Positions 826 to 64,000 of a stretch of DNA of 64,000 bases are shown in pieces. The DNA lies in contig JAYKYS010000004.1 in the NCBI GenBank assembly GCA_036924285.1, positions 1,860,001 to 1,924,000 of the forward strand, written 5' to 3'. Within the stretch, counting starts at the first letter, position 1. Each line of letters starts with the position of its first letter. The notes under the pieces were generated by a model, which was not told the origin of the DNA, did not search any database, and saw only the letters and a list, made by a program, of their open reading frames with translations. This stretch comes from Asterella californica. Its lineage: Eukaryota; Streptophyta; Marchantiopsida; Marchantiales; Aytoniaceae. A program made the position numbers and the translations under genes.

Positions 826-1784
826 AACGTGCCTCTGAGCCACGAGGTGCGTCAGTGGAGTTGGATCCACAACGCGGGGAGGCTGGTAGACAGACCAGGC
901 TTCCCCAGTCGTTCATGTTATCGGAGGCGTTGAGGATCACATCTATGGTTCCTAAACGGCCTATCGATGGTGCAGTAGAGTTGGAGGCATCGACATCCAG
1001 GAGTGGGTGTGATGTGAGTCCACTTTCGACGTCTGTGGATGTGACGTCGAACCCGATGTTGGAGGCGACTACAGCAGTTTTGCGAGTCCCACTATTCTCA
1101 GCCACAGATATGAGGACATTGGGAGTCAACTTGGTTCCAGTGTTCCAGTTGGCGGCCACGCTCAGTGAGAGCGAGGATATAGTTACCTCTAGTGCTGAAG
1201 TAGTTCAGCGAGAGGCGGTAGACGTGTCCATGGAGTCGAGGATCAGGAAAGCTACCAGTGGTACTTGGCAAGCGGCGGCTGCTAGGTTAGATGAGTTACC
1301 AGCTAGACCGGCGATTGACCGTGCTGGTTTGGCACCAAGTGTGGTGTTGTTGGGCAACAGAAGTGGTATCTTCTGTTTGGTGGCACCTTCAGGGAAAGTG
1401 TATCGACCCCAGAAGGTCTTGTTAGACTCTGGAGCCCAAGCGTTGATGTTGGGAAAGGCGGCGTGTATTGGTTTGGGTCTGAAGAAGTCCGAGATAGAGA
1501 GATGTCCATTCCAGTTGCAGACATCGCTAGGGGGATCAGGAGGTACGGCTCTACACATGACACGTGAGATGTTGACGGTGAGAGTTCGGCCAGATCACCC
1601 CACGGATGGCTCTATGGTGAGAACCAAGGCCATCGTTACAGCCGCAGAGTCTTATTATGTATTGCTTGGAGGTGCTGTGTTGTACCCTATGGGGTTCGTG
1701 ATCGACTATTGAGCGGAGACAGCATCTTACAGACCAGGTTGGCAGTCCGATGAGGGACGAGTGAGCCGCTTACCAGTGCGGTTC
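826..1784 (+). pseudogene. Retroelement B1: gag tail and retropepsin fragment
   Basis: The open frame at 855-1712 encodes the region before the aspartic protease and the protease core of Ty3 family B. The active-site triad DSG is in the context VLLDSGAQALMLG (Asp codon 1425-1427, residue 191 of the frame). Retropepsins cleave the gag-pol polyprotein. The gag domain and zinc knuckle seen in the second B copy are missing, so the fragment is 5'-truncated at about 826. The frame ends in TGA at 1710-1712 where B2 has TGG, a nonsense change. Coding is then cut at 1784 by insertion of a family A element, whose solo LTR remains. The continuation of B resumes at 2700 and, as a second copy, at 12477. 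Confidence 0.82.
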
Positions 1785-2699
1785 TGTAACGACTTATGTT
1801 ACACATAGGAAGTTTGTCTATTAGTAAGGTGTTTAGTTATAACTAAGTGTTGAGAATGTTTATTTGCTGCCAAAGTACTTTAAGGAGGTATCAAGTTAGT
1901 CATGACTAGCTAAAAGTTAGTTCTGGTTAAACTTAGCTGTACTTTTGGCAGAATTCAGATATTTGCTAAAGAGTGAGCACTATTATCTTGTCCTCTTGTC
2001 TAAAAGGTAGAAAAGAGGTGGAAAGTATCCCTTATCTCCTTTTTGACTTGATATGAGTGGTTGGATTAAAGTTGTGGACTTTGTGGGCATTAAAAACAAG
2101 AAGAGATTCTACATGTTTCCTTTTTAGTGGTCCTAGTGTAGAGAGGGGGTGGAAATTCGAGATTCCTTGAGAATATTCTAGAATCCTTCTAGAAGTTGTT
2201 GACTTTGAAGGAATAAGCCCATGTGAAAAGGTAAGAAGCCCATGTGATTAATACTTTTACCTTAAGTAATATCTTAGTAAAACTCGGTAAAAGTAGTTAC
2301 GGTTGAGTTACCAGAGGGTACCAAAGTAAAAACCTAGAATGTATAAATAGAGGAGTAGAGAAGAGCTCCTCATCCTTGTTTTCACATTGTCGTAATGACA
2401 ACTTGAGTAATATAGAGAGTGTGGGATATTTTTAGCATGTGAGAACTTGAGAGACGTCGTTAGAATGGAGGATTTTAGTTGATGTGTTTAAGGAGAATTT
2501 TTAGTTGATAAGTTTGTGGGTGTATGAATGAGTGAACTTAGCATTTTTTCCTTCAAGATTCATGGTGTGCTTCCATCAAAGCCATCAGAGGTGACCCCTA
2601 AGTGAGAGACAGGCCCGACATTTGCAAATTCATCGGTGACGATCGTGGAGGTTGAGAGATCGGGGAGGTAGTTGATCGATGGATCGTGGAAGGTTTACA
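1785..2699 (+). repeat. Family A solo LTR
   Basis: A 915-bp LTR starting TGTAACGAC and ending TTTACA, matching four other LTRs in the window. It carries TATAAATAG at 2342-2350. It is flanked on both sides by GTTC (1781-1784 and 2700-2703), a 4-bp target duplication inside B. The uninterrupted B2 copy near 60660-60690 shows only one corresponding site. No internal A sequence is attached, so this looks like a solo LTR left by LTR-LTR recombination. Confidence 0.93.
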
Positions 2700-3427
2700 G
2701 TTCAGTGCTAGAGTTGGGACAACGGAGCCTACACCAGGGACGATCACATCCGTTGCAGGGTTCAGTTCGATCATCACTTGGCCGAGCGAGTTGTTGGAGG
2801 GCAATGCCCATTCGGAGGATAATCCGATCTTTGAGGAGGTGGAGGACATGCCTAGCATGTCTACTAGCACCATCTGCCTTGGATGTTCCACTCTGGAGTT
2901 CGAGTGGAGAGTTACAACAGTATGCTGATCAGTTGGTGTAGCAGGCTTGGAGTGAAGCCTTTGTACCACCAGTAGATGAACAAAGGGTTGTTCCTGCTAC
3001 TGACCCTGTGACCTTATCACCGTTGGATACGACTCCTATTGTGTGGCAGTATCCAGAGGAGGGTGTATGTGTGCTGGAGCTGTTTGAGAGATCAGTGCAG
3101 GTTTGGCTGCGGTATTGCAGACAGGCATACAAGTACAGCAATACTTGTATGTGGAGAGAGATGAGATTGCGAGACGCATCTCATTGCGACATGTGGCACG
3201 TTTGGTGCAGAAATATTCTGAGTTGTTGCCCATATCATCTGTTAGAGGATACCAGCAAGCATTACCGTCGAATATTTCGCTGCTGGGGGCGTAAGATCTT
3301 ACGTTTGTTGGTACCATTCACTTGGTGATAGCCGGATGGCCATGTCAAGGTCACACGCGTGCTGGGAGAGGTCAGGATTTACATGACCCGCGATCTAGGA
3401 TGTTCTGAGAGATGTCACGGATCTTAC
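2700..3427 (+). pseudogene. Retroelement B1: duplicated linker and DNMT N-terminal half
   Basis: This 728-bp stretch duplicates 12477-13205. It encodes the linker after the protease and then the start of the cytosine-5 methyltransferase domain. It retains motif II as YVERD (near 3148-3162) and the catalytic motif IV as GWPCQGHTRAG, with the Cys codon at 3343-3345. The longer copy has Lys in motif II and Ser before the catalytic Cys, so this fragment preserves the better residues. A 1-nt deletion in motif I (near 3089) breaks the frame. The stretch stops abruptly at about 3427 and joins a family A pol tail, so motifs VI-X are absent. Confidence 0.85.
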
Positions 3428-3740
3428 GAGCGAGCTCAGGCGTATCAAAAGAAGAGTTACGACAAACGGTTGGGCAAGAGGGAGGTAAAACCTTTTCAAG
3501 TCGGAGATTGGGTTATGTTGTATGATGCTATCAGATTCAAGAGGGCTAGGAAGAAGTTTCTTCCGAGATATTTTGGTCCTTTTGTTGTAGATAAGGTGTG
3601 GAGCAACTTCACATATGAACTTCAGGAGCTGGGAGGAAGGAGATTCGATCGGGTAAATCATGACAAGTTGAAGTTGTTTCATCGACGAAAGTTCTCTCTT
3701 CACTTCGAGGACGGAGTGAACATTTAGTCCGGAGGTAAAA
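3428..3740 (+). pseudogene. Family A pol 3' tail fragment
   Basis: It matches the last ~310 bp of family A pol before the 3' LTR (compare 11250-11560). It encodes the integrase C-terminal region with the GPY/F-type motif RYFGPFVVDKVW and then the polypurine tract. The frame is open to the stop at 3725-3727. On the left it joins B sequence directly; on the right it runs into the LTR at 3741. No A integrase core precedes it, so it is a recombination scar and not an insertion of its own. Confidence 0.85.
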
Positions 3741-12476: not shown

Positions 12477-14041
12477 GTTCAGTGCTAGAGTTGGGACAAC
12501 GGAGCCTACACCAGGGACGATGACATCCGTTGCAGGGTTCAGTTCGATCATCACTTGGCCGAGCGAGTTGTTGGAGGGCAATGCCCATTCGGAGGATACT
12601 CCGATCTTTGAGGAGGTGGAGGACATGCCTAGCATGTCTACTAGCACCATCTGCCTTGGATGTTCCACTCTGGAGTTCGAGTGGAGAGTTGCAGCAGTAT
12701 GCTGATTAGTTGGTGCAGCAGGCTTGGAGTGAAGTCTTTGTACCACCAGTAGATGAACAAAGGGTTGTTCCTGCTACTGGCCCTGTGACCTTATCACCGT
12801 TGGATACGACTCCTATTGTGTGGCAGTATCCAGAGGAGGGTGTATGTGTGCTGGAGCTGTTTGGAGAGATCAGCACAGGTTTGGCTGCGGTATTGCAGGC
12901 AGGCATACAAGTATAGCAATACTTGTATGTGAAGAGAGATGAGATTGCGAGACGCATCTCATTGCAACATGTGGCACGTTTGGTGCAGAGATATTCTGAG
13001 TTGTTGCCCATATCATCTGTTAGAGGATACCAGCAAGCATTACCGTCGGATATTTCGCTGCTGGGGGCGCAGGATCTTACGTTTGTTGGCACCATTCACT
13101 TGGTGATAGCCGGATGGTCATGTCAAGGTCACACGCGTGCTGCGAGAGATCAGGGTTTACATGACCCACGATCTAGGATGTTCTGGGAGATGTTACGGAT
13201 CTTACGACATCTCCAGATGCATCAGGTGGATTCTCCAGCGTACATCTTGGAGAACGTTCCTTTGTTGGGTGATGCTCGTACACAGATGATGGCGAGTGTG
13301 CACCAAGTGCGATCTTGGGTTGGACTAGCAGTGTTGTTGGATGCAGCGAGAGTAGGATCTCGTGCACATCATCCACGGTTGTGATGGACGAACTTGTTAC
13401 CGAGAGAGGTGCTTAAGCGCACACACGATGGAGTGAGACGGCCAGCGCATTTCACGGTTGATAGCATCTTGGATGCAGGACGACGATCTCAAGTAGTGAG
13501 AGTCGTCGATAGGTCACCCATGGCAGTGGTGAACCTAGTGGGACGGTCCATGGTAGCGTTACCCACTTTGGTAAGCTTTCCAGCGTCACATGCTTACAGA
13601 GATGGAGGACATGGGCTTGTGTGGGATGCTCAATTAGGGCAGTTGGTGGAGCCCAATGTCGATGAGAGAGAGCGAGCGATGTGTTTCGCTACGGGTACGA
13701 CAGCAGTAGCTTTGGTGTCAGAGGCTTCACGTCGTCAAGTATTGAGCCAAGCAATGGACTTGAATTGCTTGACATGGATTGTTAGCCTTGGATTTGCTGA
13801 GCAACGTCGGATGCGATCGACGAGTGTTACTGCTCGAGCACTCTTGAGCTCTTTGTCTATCGAGTCGGTGGAGGCAAAGGCTGGGGGCGAGGCACGTGGA
13901 GTTCGTCATCCTTGGACATCATGGGATGTCATAGGAGAGAGTGTGGAGCTTGCAGCTAGAACTGCAGAGGTTTTATGCACAGTAGCGGTGGAGGTTGTTG
14001 ATGGTGAGCAGAAGGAAACTGCTCCAAAAGCTGCAAGATAG
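12477..14041 (+). pseudogene. Retroelement B1: C5-cytosine DNA methyltransferase domain
   Basis: After a ~370-bp linker, one frame (12710-14041) encodes a full DNMT fold order. Motif I is VLELFGEISTGL (about 12846-12881) and motif II is YVKRD. Motif IV is GWSCQGHTRA (Cys codon 13121-13123) and motif VI is ENV (13250-13258). Motif VIII is SRAHHPRL-WTN, a variable region follows, motif IX is ERERAMCFATGTT, and motif X is SRRQVLSQAMDLNCLTWIV (near 13730-13790). C5-MTases transfer methyl from AdoMet to cytosine through the motif IV Cys. Motif I and the following GIQV recall the DNMT3 group. Lesions: TAG at 12914, TGA at 13382 (TGG in B2), Pro to Ser before the catalytic Cys and Glu to Lys in motif II. 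The domain lies between the protease (826-1712) and RT (14072 on) of the same element. Confidence 0.88.
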
Positions 14042-14047
14042 CAGTCA
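14039..14047 (+). promoter_or_regulatory. Candidate leaky stop between DNMT and RT (B1)
   Basis: TAG at 14039-14041 is followed by CAGTCA, fitting the readthrough consensus UAG-CAR-YYA known from plant-virus leaky stops. The upstream DNMT and downstream RT are in the same frame. B2 has the identical nonamer in frame at 62227-62235. Simple inherited nonsense mutation (CAG to TAG) is the alternative. Confidence 0.4.
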
Positions 14048-15530
14048 ACGACTTCGTCTTCTATCTCTAGCATGGTGACAGAGGATACTTGGGAGCCGGA
14101 GATTGGACCCAAGCTTATAGGAGAGGAGAGACGAAGAGTTCAAAGATTCCTGAAGAGCTACAGGAATTGTTTTGCCTTCAGTATGAAGGATTTGGGTACC
14201 TTGAAGGGACCTGGTATACGGATCGACTTGGCTAATGACACGCCAATCTTTCGACGTCCTTACAGGTACAGTGACATGGAGAGAGCCTTGATCCAGAGTC
14301 GGACTCAAGACTTGTTGGAGGCTGAGTTGGTGGAGATGTCGCATGGAGAGTATGCATCTGCCACAGTTATGCCAACCAAGAAGGATATGTATGGCAACTA
14401 CACGGATAGACGGATGTGTGGGGACTACCGTCCTATCAATCGACAGACGAAGTCCGATAAGTATGCCATGCCGACATCTGAGGAGATCTTTGATGCAGTG
14501 GGGCATGTGAAGGTCTTCAGTACTTTGGATCTTCGAGTAGGGTATCATTAGTTGCCAGTGAGAGAAGAAGATAAGTCCAAGACAGCATTCTGGGGAATTG
14601 ACTCTCACGGCAAAGATTGTTTGTATCAGTGGCGGTTCTTATCATTTGGGTTGAAGAACGCCCCTGCTGAGTTCCAAAGGGTGATGGACAGAATCCTAGC
14701 AGGATTGGATTTTGTCAGATGTTATATTGACGACATCTTAGTCTATAGTGCTACAGTGGAAGAGCACGAGAGACACTTACGGGATGTGTTTGAGCGGTTG
14801 AGAGCTCATGGGTTGAAGTTACACCTTGAGAAGTGTAAGTTCTTCCAGGAGTTGGTAGAGTATCTGGGTCACACCATCTATCCAGGTGGGTTGGGTGTTC
14901 AACAGACGAAGGTTGAGGCTATTGCACGTATCTCACGCCCCACAGATGTGAGTCGAGTTCGAGCATTTGTTGGTTTGGTGAACTTTTATCGTCGATACGT
15001 GAAGAGATTTAGTGCAATTGCGAAGCCGTTGACCAAGCTGATGAAGGTGGACCAGGCAGTGGAGAGATGAGCAGGAGCGAGCTTTTGTAGAGCTCAAGGA
15101 TAGGTTGACATCTGCTCCCACTTTGAGGAGACCCGTTAGGGGCGTCCTTTCCAACTGCACACCGATTGGAGTATGTTGGGACTTGGAGCAGTGCTGACTC
15201 AGCATGATGATGAGAAAAAAGGAGTTCGTGATGGCGTATGCCAGTCGCTCCAACAATTCAGCGGAGGTGAGGTATAGTTCGTATGAGGGAGAGTGTTTGG
15301 CGGCAGTGTGGGCTGTTGCACACTTTCGATGTTATCTGTTTGGGAACCCCTTTACTCTCATCACTGATCACCAGCCGCTCAAGTGGTTGATGGAGTCCGA
15401 CAAGCTTACAGAGAAGCTTGCACGATGGGCTCTGATCTTACAGGAGTATGACTTCCAAGTAATACATAGACCTGGAGTTGCAAACCTAGATGCCGATGGG
15501 TTGAGTCACAACTCGTGCACGAGTCAGTAG
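14042..15530 (+). pseudogene. Retroelement B1: reverse transcriptase and RNase H
   Basis: In frame with the DNMT. RT landmarks: CGDYRPINRQT, FSTLDLRVGYH, FGLKNAPAEFQR and the catalytic YIDD (14723-14734), then LEKCKFF and GLVNFYRRYV. RNase H follows with HTDWSMLGLGAVL, YEGECLA, TDHQPL and DADGLS, ending at 15530. A TAG at 14549-14551 replaces the Gln usual after GYH; B2 shares it. A frameshift near 15060 separates RT from RNase H. The YIDD box and integrase context indicate a Ty3 lineage different from family A. Some 130 bp of B continue to 15660, where A2 is inserted. Confidence 0.88.
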
Positions 15531-15660
15531 GATCAGACTGGGGCTCGATGGCATGACAAGGTTGATGAGGAGATAGTGCCAGGGTGGCATGCATCTGCCT
15601 TTCTTTATGTGTTGGCCATGAACTCTAGTATGGAGGGCCAAGTCGTATCTTTTTCTGGTC

Positions 15661-16575
15661 TGTAACGACCTATGTTACACATAGGAAGTTTGTCTATTAG
15701 TAAGGTGTTTAGTTCTAACTAAGTGTTGAGAATGTTTATTTGCTGCCAAAGTACTTTTAGGAGGTATCAAGTTAGTCATGACTAGCTAAAAGTTAGTTAT
15801 GGTTAAACTTAGCTGTACTTTTGGCAGAATTCAGATATTTGCTAAAGAGTGAGCACTACTATCTTGTCATCTTGTCTAAAAGGTAGAAAGGAGGTGGAAA
15901 GTATCCCTTATCTCCTTTTTGACTTGATAATAGTGGTTGGATTAAAGTTGTGGACTTTGTGGGCATTAAAAACAAGAAGAGATTCCACATGTTTCCTTTT
16001 TAGTGGGTCCTAGTGTAAAGGGGGGGTGGAAATTCGAGATTCCTTGAGAATATTCCAGAATCCTTCTAGAAGTTGTTGACTTTGAAGGAATAAGCCCATG
16101 TGAAAAGGTAAAAAGCCCATGTGATTAATGCTTTTATCTTAAGTAATATCTTAGTAAAACCCGGTAAAAGTAGTTACGGCTGAGTTACCGAGGGTACCAA
16201 AGTAAAAACCTAGAATGTATAAATAGAGGAGTAGAGAAGAGCTCCTCATCCTTGTTTTCACATTGTCGTAATGACAACTTGAGTAATATAGAGAGTATGG
16301 GATATTTTAGCATGTGAGAACTTGAGAGACGTCGTTAGAATGGAGGATTTTAGTTGATGTGTTTAAGGAGAATTTTTAGTTGATAAGTTTGTGGGTGTAT
16401 GAATGAGTGAACTTAGCATTTTTTCCTTCAAGATTCATGGTGTGCTTCCATCAAAGCCATCAGAGGTGACCCCTAAGTGAGAGACAGGCTCGACATTTGC
16501 AGATTCATCGGTGACGATCGTGGAGGTTGAGAGATCGGGGGGGTAGTTGATCGATAGGACCACGGAGGGTTTACA
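15661..16575 (+). repeat. A2 5' LTR
   Basis: A 915-bp LTR, TGTAACGACC to TTTACA. A perfect 17-bp palindrome, CCTATGTTACACATAGG, lies at 15669-15685 near its outer end, and is present in most LTRs of the family. Confidence 0.95.
16218..16226 (+). promoter_or_regulatory. TATA box of A2 5' LTR
   Basis: TATAAATAG at the position conserved among all LTRs; the copy in the 3' LTR is at 24065-24073. Confidence 0.6.
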
Positions 16576-16579
16576 TTTT

Positions 16580-16596
16580 TGGTTCCGTTGCCGGGA
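16580..16596 (+). other. Primer-binding site, tRNA-Glu type (A2)
   Basis: TGGTTCCGTTGCCGGGA matches the complement of the plant tRNA-Glu 3' end, as recalled, over all 17 bases. It begins four bases after the LTR end. Confidence 0.75.
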
Positions 16597-16621
16597 CCTC
16601 ACTTGAAGGGATCGTTGAATG

Positions 16622-16792
16622 ATGTTTAGAGTTCAGTTCTATATTCGACAAAAGGAGATTATGAGAGAGCACATGGAGAGAACGTTGGGAGGAGAGAGAG
16701 CTAACGCGATGTTAGCAACGTTAGAACCTTTCGTGTATCCCGTAATGATATATGACGCGTTCGAAGTCATTCTTTACATCTTGTTCACTTAG
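16622..16792 (+). CDS. Small leader ORF, 56 codons (A2)
   Basis: Same start, stop and length as the A1 ORF at 4686-4856, with three visible amino-acid changes (Lys/Glu, Arg/Pro, Val/Met). Function unknown. Confidence 0.35.
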   Translation: MFRVQFYIRQKEIMREHMERTLGGERANAMLATLEPFVYPVMIYDAFEVILYILFT

Positions 16793-16879
16793 AAAGAGTT
16801 TGAGGAGAGTTGAAAGAGAGTGCGACAAGAGTTGTAGAGAAAGGAGGAGAGAAAAGTTATTAGAGGAGATAAATTTATG

Positions 16880-17320
16880 AGTTTAGAAATTCTGCTCTCT
16901 GGAAAATTTGTACAGTCGCTGTCAACTTTTCTGTGAATTTTATTTTCCTGTGAAACTTTCCAATGTTTTAGATTGGCTGATAACCTATCTAGGACAAAAA
17001 AAATCATAGGAAAAGGTGGTCTAGAGAGGGAGCAATGAATTTTCAAAGTTGAGGGGGTCTATTCGTGAGAGTTGAGGAATTCAGTTATCTGAAAAAACTT
17101 TACAGTCATTGTCAGATTTTCTGTGAATTTTATTTTCCTGAGAAACTTTCCAATGTTTTAGAGTGGCTGATAAGCTATCCAAGACAAAAGAAATCATGAG
17201 AAGATGAGGTCTGAAGAGAGAGAAAGAATTTTTCAGAGTGGAGGGGGTTGACAACCATGAGGGAAGTGAAAATATACAAATTTCAGTTCTCTGAAATTTG
17301 TACAGTCATCACCATCTCTT
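16880..17320 (+). repeat. ~190-200-bp tandem repeat in A2 leader
   Basis: Three diverged units, each with a (T/C)TCTG(G)AAAA...ACAGTCA core near 16900, 17090 and 17290, matching the A1 leader array. Confidence 0.75.
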
Positions 17321-17462
17321 CTAATTAGGGAAGTTTCTGTTGAAACTTCATGATTTAGTAGCTTGGAGGTTGAGCTACTGGAGACCACAAAAATCTTGGA
17401 GAGATCTCTTACCAACTAAGAGATATACGTTTCGGCATACAAGGAGGTCTCGAAGATACTTC

Positions 17463-17780
17463 ATGGGGAATCCAGTTCGAATGACGAGGTGGAAGAAGAG
17501 ACGTTTAGGAGTTCGAACAGAGACGGAGAAGCCCAAGTTGAGTATAGATGAGTTACGAACCCGCATCTATAGCACTTGGGGTGCCCTCTTTACCCTATAC
17601 GAAGAAGCTTCCGCGACCATTGGCACAGATTTGAAGAAAGCCGAGTTTAAAGCATCATTCATTGTGGAGGCCACGAATGCTCCAGGTGAAGTAGAGTTGG
17701 ATCCTTACAAGAGTGAGTTCAAGATGTCTGTTGTGATTAGTACAAACGATGGTGAGGAGGATCATATCTTTGATAGTTAA
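17463..17780 (+). CDS. Leader ORF, 105 codons (A2), unknown
   Basis: Counterpart of A1 5528-5845: same length, basic start and acidic end. Differences between the copies are few and no stop has appeared in either copy. Confidence 0.5.
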   Translation: MGNPVRMTRWKKRRLGVRTETEKPKLSIDELRTRIYSTWGALFTLYEEASATIGTDLKKAEFKASFIVEATNAPGEVELDPYKSEFKMSVVISTNDGEEDHIFDS

Positions 17781-17918
17781 TTTTAGATTAGATTTTATTT
17801 CGTGTATAGCATGTATAATACACGATTTCCAATATAAAGCTCGGAAGAGTTAAGAAAGTGATGTAGAATTATTTTCCTCTATGATATTTTGTCCACTTAA
17901 TGGTTGAGAAGGTGCAAC

Positions 17919-18395
17919 ATGAGTGGAAATTCAAAAGATTAGAAAGTTAGACTTAGAAACCTTCCTCAAGGTTTAGATGTCATAGTAAGCGTCGGAGAAA
18001 GTTCGAGAGAGATTATCGTCGAGTTTGAAAACCCTAGTACTAAACCTCAAGTAGAATCTCCGAGGAGAAGAGTAGAAACCGACTTGTGGTGTTATTTCTG
18101 TAGAGGGTTGGGACACAAAGTAGTGAATTGTCCAACTAGAATCAGAACCGAGAGAGCTAAAGGGAAGCGGGAGTTTACTGATTTAAGTCTTCGAGTGGGT
18201 CCATCGTCACTAGCGCCAATTCATCTTCTAGGCGAAGATCCTTGTCCAAGTTGTGGAGTGGGTGATCTATCAAGAGGACACAAGTGCGTCGATGTGGTCG
18301 TTCTACTTACGTCAGTAGTCGAGAAGTTGGACGAGACTCAAAGAGCTGAGACGAAGAAGTTGTCGACTTCAAAAGAGGACTCGGCTGAGTTGTGA
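17919..18395 (+). pseudogene. Leader zinc-knuckle ORF with one stop (A2)
   Basis: Counterpart of A1 5984-6460. TAG at 17940-17942 (TGG in A1) breaks it near the N-terminus; the rest, including the CX2CX4HX4C knuckle and second Cys/His cluster, is open from 18084. Confidence 0.6.
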
Positions 18396-18559
18396 TGGAG
18401 ATCGTCATTCGGATGGTGGAGAAGACGGTGATGCGACTCAAGCTCATGATTACCTTGGGAGAAGAGATGGCACAAGAGGTGTTGTTACAACCATTTCCTT
18501 TCATTTTACCTATGGTAGATTATTCGCGAATGGAATTGGTGATGTTCGTACTCTTTTAG
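18395..18559 (+). CDS. 54-codon ORF overlapping the zinc-knuckle ORF (A2)
   Basis: Same TGATG overlap and same length as A1 6460-6624. Only a few codons differ between copies. Unknown function. Confidence 0.35.
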   Translation: MEIVIRMVEKTVMRLKLMITLGEEMAQEVLLQPFPFILPMVDYSRMELVMFVLF

Positions 18560-18608
18560 CGAGTAGTTATTGCACAAAAATTAGAAAAATAGAAAGAATA
18601 GTTACAAG

Positions 18609-21600
18609 ATGGGGAAGTTACCAGTGTTTCATGGGAAGGACAATGAAGATGTAGAACCATTTGTACGAGACTTCAAAAGGGGTTGCATCGGAAACAACGT
18701 GAGAAGGAAGGAAGAATGGGTGTTGTTACTGCCGGAGTTTTTAGAAGATTTTGCTCTTACGTGGTATGAAGACCAAGTGAAGAGCCAGACACCTGGTGCA
18801 GTCGAGGACACATGAGAGACGTTGAGTAATGCACTCATCGAAGAATTTCTTCCAAAAGAGAGTTATGAGAAGCTCATGGTGGAGCTTACTCATTTGAAGC
18901 AACGGGACGACGAGAAAGTTCGGCAATATGCCGAAAGGGTGGATAAGTTGGAGCAACGGTTTCGAACGGTCCTACGGAAGAGTGGAGACAATGTGGAGTT
19001 AACAATGACGGGGATTGGAGCAGTGTTGACCAAGAACTTGGTGGGAGGGTTGAGGCCTTCAATTCGAACCCAAGTGAGGTACGAGAAGCCAACAACCAAA
19101 GCGGAGGCCATCAAGATAGCGACAAATATGGAAGAGAGTTTGGATGAAGGAGATATCATCCAACCTCATCATGCTGCTCTGGTGTCAACTCCGACTCCTG
19201 GTGTAGTCACAACGATCGCACCTGCACCATCACAATTGGTGGTTGCTTCAACGTCAGCTCCTACTCCAACGGTGGTGCCAAGACCGTTTGTCCCAACAAC
19301 GATGTCTACTGCCACCTCTGATTTTCATGCCGAGCTGAAGAGCATCACCGATACTCTTGCGGATCTCAAGATAAACGTGGTGCAGTTACGAGAATGGAGG
19401 AACAAAGGTGGAGGAGGAGGTCAAAGAGGTTACGACAACAATCCCAACCGAGGAAATCAAGGTAACTTTGGAGGCAACCAAGGTAACTTTGGAGGAATCA
19501 CTTGTTGGACGTGTGGAGGTTCTCATTTCTAGCGAAATTGTCCTAACAACGGAGCAAGAGGTGCCGAAGCTGTCAGAATGAATGTGGATGGAGGAAATCC
19601 ATCACAAGGACGAGACAAGGGGGTGGCTACTATCGATGTCGTGCGAGATCCCATCTACGAGAAAGGAGAGAGTTCAAACTCTTCTCATGCACCGGTGGAG
19701 CTTTTAGCTCAAGAAAGGAAAAGAACTAGATTTTCTGATGAATCGGTTTTCATGGAGGAATCAACTAGTAGAAGTAGTCGTTCGAGTAATGTTTCGAGTA
19801 CACCAAGGGAGCCAAGAAGGAAGCTGGGGATGGCAGATTTCACCATTTCATCTTCCCAAGCGGGATATGATGTGGTTGAAGATGTGGGTGCTCAGAAAGC
19901 CAACATCACTATTGGACAACTAATCGCACTTAATCCCAGCTTACGAAGAGAACTCAGAGGAGGACTGAGTTCTAAGAGAAGCAAGAAGAAGAAACCCAAG
20001 AGCAAGACATCAAAGTCTGTGGGAGTTGGTGTGGTGGATGTGCATGCTTCAGAGGTATGCACTAGGGCTTCAAAGATTGAAGTCCGGTTGAATGGTCACT
20101 ACGTCTCTGACGTATTGGTGGATGGAGGGTCGGCTGTAAACGCAATATCGGAGAGGTTGATGAAGAAGTTGGGGATGGAACCAACTCGCCCGGCTAGCAT
20201 TGTCGTGGGGATGGCTAACAAGCAACAGGTAAGACCTCTTGGTGTGTTAGAGAAGGTGGTCGTGTCTGTGATGGGAGTTCAAACGTTGATGTCCTTTCAA
20301 GTGTTAAAGGACTCTAGTTATGATTTGCTCCTAGGTAGGCCTTGGTTGAGAGCTGTGCACACCACTGATAGGTGGCACAAGGGATACTTACGGATTGGAC
20401 CTAGAGATCATAGAGTGATAGTTCCTCTCTCGGGTGTTGGAGTTGTGACTTCTGACTCTGATAGACCCACTAGTGACTACTGGGAATCTAATACGGAGGA
20501 CGATCAGAGTGTCTCGGAAATAGATACCGGAGATTCTTACGATCAAGAATCCTCGTCTGAGGACGAAGGATTTGGTCGAGATGAATCATTACATCAGCTT
20601 AGTGCTATTGACTTGTTGTCTCGACCAGCAGTGGAGAAAGATCCTGACAAAGAAGAGTTGAGTGAGGCAGAGATTGTGAGAAGACTCTCTACCCTGAAGT
20701 TTGGTATCAATGTCACTCAAGAAGAGAAAAGTAGATTCCTAGATATATTTCGAAAATAAATCCATGTGTTTGCTTTCAGCTACAAGGATTTGAAGGAGGT
20801 GACTCTCGAGACTCATCGAATCGAATTGGAGGAGCACGCAAGACCAGTTCGACAGAAGCAGAGAAGGATCAATCCCACAACGGCAATGATGGTCAAGGAG
20901 GAGATAGACAAGTTGAAGGAGGCGAGTTTCATCTATGAGGTGGAGAACTCAGAATGGGTTTCACCCATTGTGATTGTCAAGAAGAAGAATGATAAGCTGA
21001 GAGTGTGCATAGACTATAAGAAGCTGAATGCAGTTACCAAGAAGGATTATTATCCTCTACCATTTATAGATGAGATTTTGGAGGAAGTTGCTGGTCATGA
21101 GTGGTACAGCTTTGGTGATGGTTATAGTGGGTATAACCAGATCAAGATAGCACAGGAGTACCAACAGTTGACTACTTTCACTACTCCTTGGGGAACATTT
21201 GCATTTCGGATGACGCCATTCGGATTGTGTAATGCTCCGGCCACGTTTCAAAGGTTCATGAACAAGGTGTTTGAACCATTCATAGGGAAGTTTGTTCGGG
21301 ATTTCATTGACGATTTCTGTGTATACGGACGAAAGGAGGACCACTTTGATCATGTGATCAAAGTTTTGCAGCGGTTGGAGCAAGCCAACGCTTCTCTAAA
21401 TCCAGAGAAGTGCATCTTTGGCTGCGAAGAAGGTCTGCTGTTAGGGCACATCATTTCCAAGAATGGGATTGCGGTAGATCCTGAGAAGGTGAAGAAGATT
21501 GTGGATCTTCCATTTCCGATCAACTTGACAAAGTTGAGGCAGTTTCTTGGCATGGTTGGATATTATCGTAGGTTTGTCTTTTCCTTCTCAAACAAAGCAA

Positions 21601-23494
21601 TAGCTTTGACTATGTATATGAAGAAGGGAGTTGAGTTTGACTTGATAGTGCATGATCAGAAGGCAAAAGAAGCATTTGAGGAGCTGAAGAAGGCATTGGT
21701 GACAGCTCCTATACTTGTTAAACCTGAGTGGAGTAAAGCATTTATTCTGTATACGGATGCCTCCAATGTAGCAATCGGATGTACATTAAGTCAGCTAGAT
21801 GGAGATGGGCATGATCATCCTATAGCTTATGCTAGTAGGCAGATGGTTCCAGCGGAGAAGAATTACTCCGTGACTGAACGAGAAGGATTAGCGGTGATCT
21901 TTGGATTGAAGAAATTTCGACACTACTTGCTAGGAGGGAAATTTTCCATAGTCACAGATCACAAGGCTTTACAGTATATCTTTAATAAGCCTAATGCCGA
22001 AGATCGTATTACACGTTGGAAGATCCTTCTAACAGAATACGATTATGTGATCGAAGATAGACCAGGGAAGAAGCATGCGAATGCTCATCTTTTGTCAAGG
22101 GCTTATGATGATGAGGGAGAAGAACCGTTTGATGATTCATTTCCAGACGAGCATCTGATGACCATCACAAGCATCGAGGAGATACCGGACGAGTACAAGG
22201 AAATCTGGAGTTTTCTTGTAGATGGCTCTTTTCCAGAAGGTATGCATACCCGAGAACGTAACGCGTTGATCAAGAGATGCAAACCTTACACCATGGTGGA
22301 GGGAATTCTGTTTCATCAAGGAGCAGATGGGTTACTAAGGAGAGCAGTTGGTCAGAAGGAGGCATTCAAGCTAATGCACGAGTTTCACGACGAAACTGTT
22401 TGCGGAGGTCACTTTGCTGGTAAGATAACAGCCTTCAAGATTTTGGATGCGGGTTATCACTGGAGAGGGATTTTCAAAGAGTGTTTAGACTATTGCAAAA
22501 CTTGTGACGTATGTCAAGCATTTGCTCTAAAGTCTACTAGAACACCTCCGTTAAGATCAATTCCAGTATTAGGGCCGTTTGAGAAATGGGGTATTGACTT
22601 TGTAGGTCCTCTTAATAAGACACCTCGAGGCAATAGATACATTGTAGTCGCCACTGACTATTGTACCAAGTGGGTAGAGGCTAGACCTTTGAGAGAGACC
22701 AATGAAACAGAAGTCGGTAGATTCTTATGGGAGAGGATCATCACGAGATTTGGATGTCCGTTAGAGTTGGTCTCAGATAGAGGAGGAGAGTTTGTAGGGA
22801 GCATGACTACTGCTATGTTACAACACTTTTCTATCAAGCCACGAGTAACGACCTCATACAAACCAAATGCTAATGGTCTTGCGGAGAAGACCAATCTTAC
22901 ACTTTGTATGATGCTCGCCAAAGATGCTGGTGTTGAAACTGCGAAACATACTTGGGATAAGAGGCTACATGCCATCTTATGGGAGTACCGAACGACAACA
23001 AAGACTTCTATTGGATACTCCCCATTTCGACTGGTTTATGGAGTGGAGTCCAAGTTGCCGATCCAATTTGAATTGGATACTTTTCAAACTATTCAACGAA
23101 AGTTGAAGAGGTCTAGAGGAGAAGACGTGGTCAGATCAAGAAGGGAGCAACTCATGGAGTTGGAAGAGACCCGAGCGGTAGCAATGATCCGGATGGAACG
23201 AGCTCAGGCGTATCAAAAGAAGAGTTACGACAAACGGTTGGGCAAGAGGGAGTTAAAACCTTTTCAAGTTGGAGATTGGGTTATGTTGTATGATGCTATC
23301 AGATTCAAGAGGCTAGGAAGAAGTTTCTTCCGAGATATTTTGGTCCTTTTGTTGTAGATAAGGTGTGGAGCAACTTCACATATGACCTTCAGGAGCTGAG
23401 AGGAAGGAGATTTGATCGAGTAAATCATGACAAGTTGAAGTTGTTTCATCGACGAAAGTTCTCTCTTCACTCCGAGGACGGAGCGAAAATTTAG
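18609..23494 (+). pseudogene. Near-complete gag-pol polyprotein of A2
   Basis: A single ~1.6-kilocodon frame with four stops and one frameshift. Gag starts MGKLPVFHGKDNEDVEPF, and TGA at 18813 (TGG in A1) interrupts it. The knuckle CWTCGGSHF-RNC has a TAG at its Gln (near 19530). Protease has VLVDGGSAVNAI (Asp near 20121). TAA at 20757 (TAT in A1) precedes an intact 863-codon stretch (20766-23357) covering RT (FIDDFCVYG near 21303), RNase H (ILYTDAS, near 21747) and integrase (GGHF...CDVCQ; D,D,E; 22370-23000). A 1-nt deletion near 23312 shifts the frame at the GPF motif. The order and the RT/integrase motifs resemble Athila/Tat elements. Confidence 0.93.
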
Positions 23495-23497
23495 TCC

Positions 23498-23507
23498 GGG
23501 GGTAAAA
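23498..23507 (+). other. Polypurine tract of A2
   Basis: GGGGGTAAAA, immediately upstream of the 3' LTR. Confidence 0.5.
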
Positions 23508-24427
23508 TGTAACGACCTATGTTACACATAGGAAGTTTGTCTATTAGTAAGGTGTTTAGTTCTAACTAAGTGTTGAGAATGTTTATTTGCTGCCAAAGTA
23601 CTTTCAGGAGGTATCAAGTTAGTCATGACTAGCTAAAAGTTAGTTATGGTTAAACTTAGCTGTACTTTTGGCAGAATTCAGATATTTGCTAAAGAGTGAG
23701 TACTACTATCTTGTCATCTTGTCTAAAAGGTAGAAAGGAGGTGGAAAGTATCCCTTATCTCCTTTTTGACTTGATATTAGTGGTTGGATTAAAGTTGTGG
23801 ACTTTGTGGGCATTAAAAACAAGAAAAGATTCCACATGTTTCCTTTTTAGTGGGTCCTAGTGTAGAGGGGGGGTGGAAATTCGAGATTCCTTGAGAATAT
23901 TCTAGAATCCTTCTAGAAGTTGTTGACTTTGAAGGAATAAGCCCATGTGAAAAGGTAAAAAGCCCATGTGATTAATGCTTTTACCTTAAGTAATATCTTA
24001 GTAAAACCCGGTAAAAGTAGTTACGGCTGAGTTACCGAGGGTACCAAAGTAAAAACCTAGAATGTATAAATAGAGGAGTAGAGAAGAGCTCCTCATCCTT
24101 GTTTTCACATTGTCGTAATGACAACTTGAGTAATATAGAGAGTATGGGATATTTTTAGCATGTGAGAACTTGAGAGACGTCGTTAGAATGGAGGATTTTA
24201 GTTGATGTGTTTAAGGAGATTTTTAGTTGATAAGTTTGTGGGTGTATGAATGAGTGAACTCAGCATTTTCCCTTCAAGTTCATGGTGTGCTTCCATCAAA
24301 GCCATCAGAGGTGACTCCTGAGTGAGAGATAGGCCCGACATGTTGCAGATTCGTGGACGACGATCGTGGAGGTTGAGAGATCGGGGGGGGGGGGGTAGTT
24401 GATCGATAGGACCACGGAGGGTTTACA
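23508..24427 (+). repeat. A2 3' LTR
   Basis: A 920-bp LTR, TGTAACGACC to TTTACA, differing from its 5' partner at roughly 20 sites by eye. A run of G near 24384-24394 is expanded relative to other copies. Confidence 0.94.
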
Positions 24428-25680
24428 AGTCAGAGAGTAGATGATGAGTCTCCAGATCCTGAGGGTGGAGATGGTTATCCAGACCAGCGAGATATCCATG
24501 ATGATGTGACCGTGATGGAGTATCTAAGTACTGGTGTGGTAGTAGGCGCAGTAAGTGCCAAGGAGCGAGATCGTGTCCTTCAACGAGCGAAGAGATTTTG
24601 GCGAGAAGGACGACATGTACTTCGAGTGTGGGGTGATGGGAGGGTACGGATAGTGCCACATCCATCCTAGAGGGCACAGTTAGTACGACATGCCCATGAG
24701 GAGTTGGGACATTTTGGAGTGAAGCGTACGCATAGCTTACTCCAAGAACAGTATTGGTGGCGTGGTATGCACGTCGATGTGCAAAAGTTTGTTGCACGAT
24801 GTGTGGTTTGTGATCGAGTACAAGCATCATTTAATGCTCCTACTCCACAGTTACACTCCTTATCGATTATGGGGTTGGGTTACCGTTGGAGTTTGGATTT
24901 TGCGGGACCCTTACCGTTGACCGTACTTCACCACTGGTATGTGTTGGTGATGGTGGAGCACTTCTCCAAGTGGATTGACTTGGTGGCATTATCAGACAAG
25001 GCGAGTGAAAGGACATCGTACGTGTTCTTAGATCGAGTGCTGAGTCGTTTTGGAGCACCAGCTGAAGTGCTGACAGACCAAGGTACAGAGTTCCTTGATG
25101 AGTTTCAGGCCTTGTGTGATCAGGCGCTGATTGATCATCGGACTACATCTCGAGATCATCCTGAGGCGAATGGTTTGGCGGAGAGGGTAGTTCAAACGGT
25201 GAAGAGAGGATTGCGCAAGTATGGCTTGCAGAAGGGCCACTTGGGAGACTGGGATGTGCAGTTACCATGGTTGGCTATGGGTTATCGTTTCGGCCGACAA
25301 GCGTCTTTGGCTTCCTTCTCATCGTATTTTCTATTGTATGGCCGAGATCCAGATCTACCTTCGGCCATTCGTCGTGATTCTGCTGAGGTGCTGGACCTTC
25401 ATGATCCGGATATGTGGGTGAGAGCATGTTCTCTACGAGCAGAGACATTTCGGAGAGTTATGCCTATGGCTTTTGAGAACCTAGCGATTGTCAAGCATAG
25501 AGACACGTTGCGATATACGACTATCCGAGGAGGAGGTTATCGTCCGTCGATTCGCAGGTTTCATCTTGGCGATTATATCTATCTACAGCAGACTGCACCG
25601 ACGACATTGGACGTGACCGCATGGCGCACTATTTTACGAGTGCGTGAGGTGTTTGTGGTGCCCACAAATTACAGGGTTCA
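24428..25680 (+). pseudogene. Retroelement B1: integrase
   Basis: The frame resumes after the A2 insertion. A stop lies at 24668, then 24704-25726 is open. The HHCC finger (HAHEELGHFG...CVVCDR), the catalytic Asp in SLDFAGPL, Asp in LTDQGTEFLDEF and Glu in ANGLAERV are all present, followed by FLLYGRDPDLP and a C-terminal region (RFHLGDYIYLQQ). No chromodomain is visible. B similarity appears to end near 25680, where AT-rich sequence and then the GAAGAC-rich segment begin; no B 3' LTR is seen. Confidence 0.88.
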
Positions 25681-56501: not shown

Positions 56502-57003
56502 TGTTAGAAACACGTGCAAGGAAAAATAAGAGATTTTAAATTATTTTTAGCAAAAATTTAAAACTGATAAATCTAAAATATACTATTTTTTATCTTTAAA
56601 TTTTAAACAGAAATATACTATTCTGTATGTCACGTCAGTTTAGCACCTTGGTTAGGTTGACCAAGTGAATAGTGGTTAGTCCCGGTAGGGCCATTAGTGC
56701 CGTTAGGGCAGGTTCTTGGGCTAGCCCTACTAAGGATATACTTCGCAGGTAGGGCTTGTAGACTTATTCTATAAGCCTCTTAGTCTCTGATGTCAAATAA
56801 TAGTTCTCGAGTTGAGCCTTCAAGCTCTTGGCTATGATGGATAGTCTTGGTGAACGTAATCTGGATTCTCTGATGCACAGAGTGGATTTGACTCGACTTT
56901 AGTGTTTGTGTAGTGCCGGTTGACATGATGGAGTAAGTAAAGATCGTTATTACACGAATCTACGAGGTCTGACTGAGAGCTTTCAGGTCGTGGATTACTG
57001 CCA
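56502..57003 (+). repeat. Putative 5' LTR of B2
   Basis: It starts TGTTAGAAACACGTGCAAGG and ends ATTACTGCCA. Just after follows TGGTATCTTCAGAG (57005 on), a weak match to the initiator-Met primer site TGGTATCAGAG with a 3-nt insertion. The 3' partner LTR would be beyond the window, so this cannot be confirmed. Confidence 0.35.
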
Positions 57004-58572
57004 GTGGTATCTTCAGAGTGTGCAGATTGTTGATATATTTGATTTGCAGATGTGCGTGTGCGCGAAGTGGTTTTTTTTGGTCGTGTGTTTGATTGCTGTG
57101 CGGATTAGTAGTGTGTGGACTTATTCTTGGTCGAATTTGTGGTGAGATAGTGCGGAAGCGCTGCTGAAATTTCTCGTGACAGGTTTTTTGGAGTCAATTT
57201 GAGATAGACAGATGTGCATCGGTGGATGTCGGATAGACGTTGGTCAGCAATTTCTGACGATGATGAGTTCAGTAGGTGCCGTGATGAGAAGACGATTTCA
57301 ACACACCAAAAATCATCCGATTTGATGAAGCATTGAGAGAGTTACAAGTGAAAGAAGGTTGCGGGTTGTCTAAAATCTGACGTAAATCCGTCCGCACATG
57401 TATCTATGATAGATTTCGACCTTTTCGAGTTGTTCGACCTTCTGAAGTGCTGTTTGGGATGTTTTTCGAAGAGCTTTGGCGAGGCTTCGAGGCTTCGAGG
57501 TGCGTGAGTGCAGAGACAGAGGCGGAGTCAACAAGCCAGCTTGCTAGCGTGCGTAAGCTAAGCCCAATTTCATTGATGTGAGAGTGAGTAAAATCATGTC
57601 ACCTATCTCAACATTATTCATGAAGAATGTGCTTAACTGTTTAGCTCTTAGCTTTGGCTTTACCACTAGACCAATAACTCTTGGTGTCTTCTAAGGATGC
57701 ATGCAAGTATTACGGACTTGTTTAAGATAATAGGAGATCTTTTCACACGTTCCTAGAGGAGTGGTAGGGCGATCACATAGTACTAGAAGGAAGTTGTCGT
57801 TGTGGTAGCGTTTGTCTATACCGTAGAGACGCGTATGGAGACAATTGATGATAGTTGTCTTGGATGAGCTAGTAGAGCTACCACATAGAGGGAGCTACTA
57901 GAGATGTGGACATCTAGTTAGTAATCTTAGGTACAGGTTATGACAACTGGTTGTCATATATTGTGCATGTGATCACCGAAGAGAAGACGTCAGTCCGGAT
58001 GAGGTTGAGTTTATCTTTTGTGTATGTTTGAGTGTGGAAGGTTATCGTTTGGACTTCTTGTGGTTGGAATCCCTCCATTTCTACTTCCTGTTGTGCGCCG
58101 AGTTTGCTTGTGTTGACGTTTGATTTCCGGAGTGAGTTCACTCCAGTGTGCTATCAGTAGTGAGACTGGAGTTGCGGACCAATCAGACTATCTCTTCTCT
58201 CACGGTGAGGTTGGACGTGCGACCAACAGATCGTGAGAGGCTGTCTGTGGTGATGACAGGTATAAGTTATCTTTATCTTGACCGTCTTAGTAAGAGATAG
58301 GTGAGCTTAGTTGGAGCGGGGTTAGGCAGGTTAACGACGTGTGGTGACGAGGTCTCGACACTCTAGTTAGAGCTTAGTGTTCTGATTGATAGGGGGTTGT
58401 CATCACGGAGGTCCACGAGAGTTCTGGCGGAGATTCAGCTGCAGTAAGCAATGGATTCACACGGAGTGATGTGAGGTACAAACGAGTAACACCGGTCTCA
58501 TCGGCAGACACCGATTCAGACAAGGACGTGGTTGGAGGTACATATAGTGTCGCCATACCGTTGTTGTGAGAC

Positions 58573-59280
58573 ATGGACAAGATTTATGAGGTCACGAAAG
58601 GACCTCGACGATACTCGGATACGGTGGGTATCATTGAGCTGGATGACTTCATCCAAGAGTTCGATAGTTGGTGCGATTTGCAACAGATGCGAAACCCACG
58701 ACTATTCACACCTTTCATGACGTGGAAGGATTTGTTCCAACACTTGGAGGGACCGTCTATGGACGATTACCATGAATTCAGACGAGATTACAACATGGAG
58801 ATTGAGTTGTGGAGACCACATTGATCTCTCAACTATGTTTCTATTACTACTGGCGTAGTTTCAGGAGGCATCGCATCTACGAGTTCGGGTGTCAAGAGCA
58901 ATGGTACATCCACGAGTGACGGAGTACCTACTACCAACGGTGCGTTCACTAGTAGTGGAGCAAGCGGTAGTAGAGCGGGATACCACTAGGGTTTAACCTT
59001 GTGGTTCAGTTCTTCCAGTGTTTGAGAAAGACGTATCAAGGTGTGCACACCGACAAGTTGAGGGGTCTGTAAGAGTTCCAGCGGAAAACTGGAGAGAGCC
59101 TACACGAGGTGTTTACTCGTATGAGGCGATTGATCAGCATGTCCAAGGGGTGACAGAAGCACAACCAGTCCAGACTTAGTGGATAGAAGCTCATGCCGTC
59201 CTTCTCTAGTCAACAGCAAGCGGATCCTTGCTGGACGTGTGATGGTCCTCATCAGCAGAAGGACTGCTCATAGAGAAAAG
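58573..59280 (+). pseudogene. B2 gag with zinc knuckle
   Basis: 58573-58824 opens MDKIYEVTKGPRRYSD and has features of a retrotransposon gag (TWKDLFQHLEGPSMDDYHEF). After stops and a shift, EFQRKTGESLHEVFTRMRRL (about 59070-59130) is a typical retrotransposon gag segment. CWTCDGPHQQKDC (about 59226-59265) is a CX2CX3HX4C knuckle. Family B's gag is seen only here; it is missing from B1. Confidence 0.7.
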
Positions 59281-59550
59281 ATGGTTATGATACGTATGAG
59301 ACGTCTCAAGCGGTGCCTAGGCAGTGTGAGCATTGAGAGCGACCAAGTCACAATAGTGATCATTGTTTTGATCTCCACCTCGAGCTACAGCAAGGGAAGG
59401 CTGAGCATGGACGAGGCGGAGGAGCGTGGTGATCGAGTTGGAGATAGAGGTCCAGCACTCGAGAGAGGATCATTCCGTCCACCGTCCACTACGATGTCAG
59501 ATACGGGTATGGCTGCTCGGATTGAGCAGTTGTAGCACAAGATAGCTAGT

Positions 59551-60599
59551 ATGGCTATGACTCACAGAGATCTAGTTCGAGAACAGAGACTTCCACAAAC
59601 CATGAAGTCAAAGTCAACTCCTTCTCCTCCTTACGGAGGAGAAGGAGTTGACTTTGACTTCATGGTTTGTGTGGCACAGATTGAGGCATCTGCGGCAGTG
59701 ACTCAGAGTGCAGTACGTGCCTCTGAGCCAGGGGATGCATCGGTGCAGTTGGATCCACAACGCGGAGAGGTTGATAGACATGACAATCTTTCTCAGTCAT
59801 TCACGCTATCGGAGGTGTTGAAGACCATGTCTATGATTCTTAAACGACCTACCGATGATGTGATGAAGTTGGAGATATCGACATCCATGAGTGGGTGTGA
59901 TGCGAGTCAACCCTCGACGTTTGTGGATGCGACATCAAATCTGATGTTGGAGGCGGCTACATCAGTTCTGTGAGCCTCACTATTTTCAGCCACGGATATG
60001 ATGACATTGGGAGTCAGCTTGGCTCCAGTGTTCCAGGTAGCAGCCATGCTCAATGAGAGCGAGGATGTAGTTACCTCTAGTGTTGAGGTGCTTCAGCGAG
60101 AGGCGGTAGATATGTCCATGGAATCGAGGATCAAGACAGCTACCAGTGGTACTTGGCAAGCGACGACTGTCAAGTTAAATGAGTTACTAGTTAGGTCGGC
60201 AATTGATCGTGATGGTTTGGCACTAGGTGTGGTGTTGTTGGACAACAGAAGTGATATCTTCTGTTTGGTGACACCTTCAGAGAATGTGTATCGATCGCAG
60301 AAAGTCTTGTTAGATTCTAGAGTCTAACCGTTGATGTTGGGAAAAGAGGAGTGCATTAGTTTGGATCTGAGGAAGTCCGAGGTGGAGAGATGTCCATTCC
60401 AGCTGCAGATATCTCTAGGAGGATAAGAGGGTACAACTCTACACATGACATACGAGGTGCTGACGATGAGAGTTCGACCATATCATCTCACAGATGACTT
60501 GATGATGAAGACCAAAGTCATCATTACGACCGCGGAGTCTTATGACGTATTGGTTGGAAGTGTTGTGTATGTCTTATGAGATTCGTGATCGACTATTGG
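59551..60599 (+). pseudogene. B2 gag tail and retropepsin
   Basis: Two open stretches (59551-59973 and 59998-60327) align with the B1 frame 855-1712. The active site reads LLDSRV instead of LLDSGA and is followed by a stop, so the protease is dead. The end of the domain reads FVIDYWTE, showing that the TGA at 1710 in B1 replaced a Trp codon. Confidence 0.75.
59594..59671. repeat. Perfect palindrome, 37-bp arms, 4-nt loop
   Basis: The left arm 59594-59630 and right arm 59635-59671 are exact reverse complements around the loop TTAC. The arms contain AAGTCAAAGTCAACTCC and its complement. It lies inside the gag tail frame, which still reads through it. Neighbouring sequence is heavily mutated, but the arms show no mismatch. 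Confidence 0.97.
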
Positions 60600-62229: not shown

Positions 62230-62235
62230 CAGTCA
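62227..62235 (+). promoter_or_regulatory. Candidate leaky stop between DNMT and RT (B2)
   Basis: TAGCAGTCA, in frame with the DNMT upstream and the RT-region ORF downstream, identical to 14039-14047 in B1. Confidence 0.4.
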
Positions 62236-63700: not shown

Positions 63701-63739
63701 CAAACTAGAGCTCGATGGCATGACGAGGACAATATTGAT

Positions 63740-64000
63740 GACGTGGTATGCACATCCGATGTGTAGTAGTTTGTCGCACGATGTGTGGTTTGTGATCGAG
63801 TACGAGCATCATTTAATGCTCCTACTCCACAGTTACATCCCTTCTCAGTTATGGGATCTGGTTATCATTGGAGCTTGGATTTTACGGGATCCTTATCGTT
63901 GACTATACGTCACCTCCGGTATGTGTTGGTGATGATAGAGCACTTCTCCAAGTGGATTGAGTTGATGACATTACTGGACAAGACGAGTGAAGGGACATCA
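63740..64000 (+). pseudogene. B2 integrase, 5' part, cut by window end
   Basis: Matches 24760-25018 of B1: CVVCDRV of the zinc finger, then the first catalytic Asp (WSLDFTG) and EHFSKWIEL. The HH part of the finger is deleted. The rest lies outside the window. Confidence 0.75.

Follow-up and report, generated by a model that had tools for sequence, protein, structure and literature searches.

The 64,000-nucleotide stretch of Asterella californica DNA analyzed here (contig JAYKYS010000004.1, positions 1,860,001 to 1,924,000 of the forward strand; hereafter the window) contained two copies of a Ty3/Gypsy-type retrotransposon, termed element B, that carries a DNMT3-class cytosine-5 DNA methyltransferase (DNMT) between its protease and its reverse transcriptase (RT). 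This arrangement had been proposed from the letters of the window alone (the original prediction), and it was upheld by profile searches, a modeled fold, a tree and other copies in the genome. The parts of the first copy were as follows, with alignments given to L018, one of the open-frame copies of the same genome.

827..1787, + strand: gag-end and protease part of B copy 1; aligns to L018 3333-4293; DSGA at 1419
2700..3429, + strand: duplicated B piece with the front of the DNMT; equals L018 4287-5019 and adjoins a repeat of element A
12477..15660, + strand: protease-DNMT linker, DNMT, UAG, RT and RNase H of B copy 1; 95.8% to L018 4287-7477
12827..13810, + strand: DNMT3-like cytosine-5 methyltransferase domain, broken by stops at 12914 and 13382
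13112..13129, + strand: motif IV; GWSCQG in the window copy, AGWPCQG or AGWPCQD in 16/16 open-frame copies
14039..14041, + strand: in-frame TAG, then CAG TCA; candidate readthrough stop at the DNMT/RT boundary
14072..15067, + strand: RT segment of B copy 1; stop at 14549; match to RVT_1 (E = 8.1e-25) over 14552-15067
15661..24428, + strand: nested Gypsy element A, inside the B integrase part; without a DNMT match
24429..25653, + strand: integrase part of B copy 1; aligns to L018 7475-8699

The methyltransferase motifs of copy 1 lay in a single frame (12458+3n), with motif I near 12851, IV (GWSCQG) at 13112, VI (ENV) at 13244, VIII at 13349, IX (ERERAM) at 13664 and X at 13742, and the same frame continued through the TAG at 14039-14041 into RT. 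The order and common frame claimed for these motifs therefore held, but the frame was interrupted by stops, and motif IV read SCQ as opposed to the PCQ of the 16 open-frame copies. Two further stops, at 12521 and 12707, preceded the domain. The profile search suggested at the outset gave a match, since Pfam DNA_methylase (PF00145) was found on 12923-13381 alone with a score of 28.7 bits, where 22 is the cut-off (E = 1.2e-6). The two outer pieces (12710-12913 and 13394-14038), searched singly, gave no DNMT profile match, and the sole match among NCBIfam profiles, to dcm, scored 33.3 bits, far under its cut-off of 100.65 bits. When the DNMT domain of an open-frame copy was compared with the window by tblastn, 12827-13810 was recovered at 92% identity. 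The proposed collinearity with protease and RT stood on the downstream side, where RT followed in the same frame, but upstream the protease part (827-1787) was separated from the DNMT by a nested second Gypsy element, the B segment beginning exactly at 12477. The domain at 12827-13810 is a decayed cytosine-5 methyltransferase within a dead Ty3/Gypsy-type element.

Open-frame relatives were recovered from the 516.7-Mb genome, in which a search with PF00145 gave 123 scored hits among 1250 candidates. By eye, at least 4 of the 123 were recognized as host genes, of which L029 was of DNMT3 type and L027, L028 and L030 were of DRM type, and 16 carried an open frame of 1367 to 1381 amino acids; these 16 copies and two others made up the 18 ten-kb loci that were examined. 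Frame 1 contained zinc knuckles, an LLDSGA protease motif and the DNMT, the first two identified by eye, as Pfam gave no gag or protease match. The second frame, open over 1038 to 1041 amino acids in 10 of the 16 copies (L012, L013, L016-L018, L020-L024), matched profiles for RT, RNase H, integrase (rve, H2C2) and a PHD finger (E = 6.8e-11). The order of gag knuckles, protease, RT, RNase H and integrase is that of the Ty3/Gypsy type, and the genome search for intact copies that had been recommended found 16 open-frame copies with the DNMT at the same position. The catalytic motifs were intact in 16/16 open-frame copies, in which the ratio of nonsynonymous to synonymous polymorphism (pN/pS) of the DNMT was 0.19, similar to that of the protease; these copies were chosen by profile-score rank and are closely related, so that the conservation counts are biased toward intact copies. 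The Cys-Gln and Glu-Asn pairs were invariant across an alignment of 29 sequences. Judged from these comparisons, the DNMT domain is under purifying selection.

An AlphaFold2 model of the element DNMT (predicted local distance difference test score, 93) had DNMT3A and DNMT3B as its best structural matches among those listed. DNMT2 was not among the best 50 structural matches listed and was far weaker by sequence (E = 0.0076), and the DNMT3-like character originally read from motif I was supported by fold and sequence alike. In a tree of 58 DNMTs, the 25 element DNMTs formed one clade with support of 100/100, outside which fell 9 host DNMT3, 2 DRM, 1 animal DNMT3 and 21 environmental proteins; the tree was unrooted with long branches, which limits inference on the donor. 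The host gene L029 matched PDB DNMT3A (E = 2.7e-14), its domain being split over two open frames; joined by eye, these had their closest relatives in Riccia fluitans (61%) and R. sorocarpa (58%). L029, which shares the genome with the element, and its relatives in Riccia, Sphagnum, Diphasiastrum and Selaginella have a DNMT3-type domain, as does the element, but the relatives carry an additional DUF3444, and the host proteins form a clade separate from the element DNMTs with full support. Two of the DRM-type host genes (L027 and L028, at G000:C526:5098800-5136500) were oppositely oriented, with about 30 kb between them, and looked very similar by eye.

Relatives of the DNMT region of open reading frame 1 (ORF1) numbered 43 at E 0.001 among 7997 candidates scored, the closest named one coming from Marchantia polymorpha, where identity reached 76% across 91% of the query; a relative from Sphagnum fallax was 50% identical, in a gene model that lacks the motif IV CQG. 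Since the host DNMT3 is nearest to Riccia and the element nearest to Marchantia, a liverwort host was inferred, in agreement with the land-plant setting originally envisaged. A search from protein P0036 returned 113 rows including itself, with the green algae Monoraphidium neglectum and Cymbomonas tetramitiformis named; the Klebsormidium element discussed below was sought in this search and not recognized, and no row of either search was named as Klebsormidium, most rows being without an organism name. In a pool of 140 element proteins, which were chosen by their DNMT (so that DNMT-free relatives are invisible) and included many fragments, the DNMT came directly after a protease match in 36, of which 7 continued into RT, RNase H or integrase. 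It lay ahead of RT in 2 more and past RT or RNase H in 89, 69 of them in the full order RT-RNase H-DNMT-integrase-PHD, and 13 were undecidable. In trees of RT-RNase H and of DNMT from 45 elements, the two placements were split once in each, with support of 98 and 95 in the Shimodaira-Hasegawa-like approximate likelihood ratio test, although this is a modest test with 5 protease-side elements (one on a long branch) and 40 integrase-side elements thinned from 78. It follows that the DNMT is carried along with the rest of the element and that its placement seems to have changed once. The claim that the domain belongs to the element and is not a chance insertion of a host gene was likewise sustained, the same order being found in the 16 open-frame copies and in Marchantia proteins. 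Overall, we regard it as nearly certain that a Ty3/Gypsy-type family of this liverwort-like genome carries a DNMT3-class cytosine-5 methyltransferase between protease and RT, as far as identity and anatomy are concerned. Among the relatives, a G-patch (PF01585) was listed in the DNMT-bearing proteins P0164, P0171, P0193 and P0245, and a chromodomain (PF00385) beside the PHD finger in P0232. One relative of algal type, P0225, was filed under a metagenome-assembled genome of a Minisyncoccia bacterium, most likely a mis-binned eukaryotic contig.

The layout of the element was A1 - gag-protease-DNMT - UAG - RT-RNaseH-integrase-PHD - B1-A2-B2, in which repeat A1 (294 bp) begins with TG and B1 (108 bp) is followed by GC, A2 and B2, the last terminating in CA. 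B1-A2-B2 was present at the 3' end in 15 of the 18 loci (with A2 shortened in L009), a single B in L017 and none in L010 and L011. Upstream, A1 was seen in 17 of 18 pieces, and no B lay beside A1 in any of the 18. An exact 4-bp target duplication flanked 12 of the 15 copies in which both ends were read, and the remaining 3 matched at 3 of 4 bases; in L015, where the match stopped two bases short of the element end, the duplication was assigned by eye. Repeats A1 and A2 were identical in 6 of 14 measured copies, a comparison that left out L010 and L011 (no A2), L009 and L017, and some of the insertions are therefore recent. L017 (G000:C526:31055650-31065649) had an exact target duplication around A1...B despite having no A2 or B2; its single B may have come from recombination between B1 and B2 after insertion, with which the retained duplication agrees. 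An ordinary layout with two long terminal repeats was ruled out by the split direct repeats (A1...B1-A2-B2) and the target duplications. Split direct repeats are typical of DIRS-like elements, which have a tyrosine recombinase in place of a DDE integrase and are not known to make a target duplication. Membership in the DIRS group fits the split repeats but was ruled out by the rve/H2C2 integrase and the 4-bp duplication, and no tyrosine recombinase was in the Pfam match list of the element frames.

The second copy of B lay near the end of the window, with the following features.

57532..63996, + strand: B copy 2, older and decayed; truncated where the window ends; matches L018 as three pieces of 80.6-88.6% identity
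61016..61998, + strand: DNMT of B copy 2; matched at 55-56% identity in two pieces that overlap and differ in frame
62227..62229, + strand: TAG of B copy 2, then CAG TCA, the same as in copy 1

From the gag end to RT (59179-63728), copy 2 was collinear with L018 at 84% identity, so that the predicted repetition of the arrangement was found, but with stops and frameshifts and with its DNMT matched in two pieces (61016-61846 and 61723-61998). Both window copies of B are dead. A 70%-identical piece of the A repeat at 56628-56897, about 600 bases upstream of copy 2, is probably the A1 of that copy. The interval 1785-24428 contained two nested copies of element A, whose terminal repeats lay near 1785, 3722, 11561, 15661 and 23508; element A was searched for a DNMT without a match, and its RT and integrase profiles were found on the copy other than that at 15661-24428. 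The copies of element A together with the duplicated B piece at 2700-3429 appear to be the product of nested insertion followed by recombination.

Besides the death of the window copies and the split direct repeats in place of ordinary long terminal repeats, a third correction to the original prediction was that a conserved in-frame UAG parts the DNMT from RT. A single in-frame TAG, followed by CAG TCA, separated frames 1 and 2 and was present in all 42 alignable sites of 45 (the unalignable ones being L062, L065 and L070), both window copies included. Fifteen positions around the TAG were invariant in the 42 copies, a result that position shuffling reached by chance in 0.3% of cases, the copies not being independent. 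The context UAG CARYYA is the type I readthrough context of plant viruses (PMC5382211), and UAG CAG UCA matches this tobamovirus-type context exactly. It is unlikely that the UAG ends a Gag-protease-DNMT protein outright, with RT and integrase made from their own ATG via reinitiation or from a spliced or internal RNA; an ATG does lie in the same frame 11 codons past the stop, and several Marchantia gene models stop ahead of RT, but the exact type I context, the 15 invariant positions (chance 0.003) and a frame that was open directly past the TAG in 17/17 loci inspected all speak against it. We consider it likely, from this context, that the UAG is read through. Since the readthrough-type context was found in 42/42 copies, the DNMT may therefore be made at the level of Gag. 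In the 76 ORF1 codons ahead of the UAG, mean pS across the 16 copies was 0.016, versus 0.057 to 0.076 elsewhere in ORF1, and pN/pS exceeded 1. An RNA signal ahead of the UAG, suggested by the low pS, was dropped as a candidate, the sliding divergence profile being without a clear dip.

A mechanism can be proposed that, taken as a whole, could equally well be right or wrong. Most ribosomes would halt at the UAG and produce Gag-protease-DNMT, and a minority would read through, adding RT, RNase H, integrase and the PHD finger, such that protease and DNMT would be made along with Gag, the DNMT being packed into the particle at that level, and the dose of RT and integrase would be lower. Within the particle, the DNMT would methylate the element's own double-stranded cDNA before it is integrated, a step that de Mendoza and colleagues suggested for DIRS elements (PMC5890265) and that is put forward here tentatively and with some doubt. 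The cDNA would then be inserted with a 4-bp duplication by the integrase, possibly under the guidance of the C-terminal PHD finger, and the new copy would arrive already carrying 5-methylcytosine, either hidden from sensing or as a quiet and tolerable insertion. The closest solved relatives of the PHD finger by sequence include MLL3, CHD4, DPF2/3, KDM5A/B and PHF21A; several of these PHD fingers read the unmodified H3 tail, and for this reason the finger may steer the integrase.

Several points, in addition to the bias of the conservation counts, weigh against this reading. When a mark of self-methylation was sought in the dead B copies, none specific was found: C-to-T change was higher in CG and CHG than in CHH in two of the three window B pieces (CG/CHG/CHH, 0.062/0.072/0.038 and 0.173/0.260/0.143; the short B piece at 2681-3430 had 0.034/0.094/0.063), and element A, without a DNMT match, decayed alike (0.071/0.081/0.031). 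This CG/CHG decay is accounted for by the host's own methylation. The domain of KnitGypsy-Dnmt3, the algal element compared below, gave no methylation in yeast, a result that its authors deem inconclusive (PMC5890265). In the relatives P0031, P0032, P0033, P0035, P0037 and P0041, the AGWPCQ of motif IV is replaced by AGWECQ, with Glu in place of Pro before the catalytic cysteine. Moreover, the UAG might do no more than end translation, RT and integrase then being made another way.

The enzyme might instead act in trans on host loci or competing elements and shift host silencing toward the element or toward host tolerance. Many copies and a possible Gag-level output would supply enough enzyme, and such action has been speculated for Symbiodinium (PMC5890265), but the dead B copies and nested element A are similar in CG/CHG decay, as would be expected from ordinary plant methylation, and we consider action in trans improbable. 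It is also doubtful that the domain has been retained to bind nucleic acids or to methylate RNA, with DNA methylation not its task. Its position beside Gag and protease, the inactivity of the KnitGypsy domain on yeast DNA and the RNA methylation raised for LINE DNMTs (PMC5890265) would suit that role; against it stand the catalytic motifs kept in 16/16 copies, the Cys-Gln and Glu-Asn pairs invariant in 29 sequences and the best match to DNMT3 by both sequence and fold, with DNMT2 weaker. A chance match, or a host methyltransferase gene that landed in one element, found no argument in its favor and can be dismissed, given that the domain has the same position in 16 open-frame copies, in Marchantia proteins and in relatives from algae and environmental samples, and that the element DNMTs group together (100/100) to the exclusion of host DNMT3 and DRM.

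The proposal of cDNA self-methylation can be extended to a broader scenario, which is speculative and on the unlikely side. A DNMT3-like enzyme would have been gained once in an algal-bryophyte Gypsy lineage, with one move within the polyprotein, and would form a write-and-read kit with an H3-reading PHD finger: the particle would methylate the cDNA, the PHD-integrase would pick chromatin that tolerates a pre-methylated copy, and, in the liverwort element, a place on the Gag side of a leaky stop would raise the enzyme dose. If true, the element would bring in its own epigenetic state and not wait on that of the host.

Elements of this kind are already known. KnitGypsy-Dnmt3 of the charophyte Klebsormidium nitens has a Dnmt3-type DNMT, free of introns, in a Gypsy element (de Mendoza et al. 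2018, PMC5890265) and resembles element B in its Gypsy domains, a DNMT3 inside the polyprotein, DIRS-type repeats and a DNMT under purifying selection. Its DNMT is described as part of the Pol ORF (PMC5890265), whereas that of element B lies in the Gag-protease frame before a conserved UAG. Element B differs further, as compared by description, in its liverwort-like host, its C-terminal PHD finger and a 4-bp duplication that was shown; the words PHD, Marchantia and Physcomitrella are absent from the main text of that paper, figures aside. SymbioDIRS-Dnmt3 of Symbiodinium, which carried out de novo CG methylation in yeast (PMC5890265), and SymbioLINE-Dnmt are retrotransposon-borne DNMTs as in element B, but of DIRS and LINE and not of Gypsy elements. 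A 2019 paper stated that methylase transposons are absent from land plants (PMC6338049), and the recently inserted copies found here, with the relatives in M. polymorpha, contradict that wider statement. Among the literature matches listed, a coverage that left out subscription papers and preprints, no report of DNMT-bearing elements in liverworts or mosses was found, and the portions covered of PMC12730594, PMC9861306 and PMC11244446 held nothing further on bryophytes. As far as these searches go, what seems new is a land-plant host with recent insertions, a Gag-side DNMT before a readthrough-type UAG, the PHD finger, split repeats for which a 4-bp duplication could be demonstrated, and membership in a broader clade of elements from algae and bryophytes. 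Chromoviruses, the Gypsy elements with a chromodomain, also have an integrase with a C-terminal chromatin-reading domain; in element B, a PHD finger replaces the chromodomain and a DNMT is added. Since M. polymorpha is a genetic model, the benefit that a DNA methyltransferase brings to a retrotransposon becomes directly testable.
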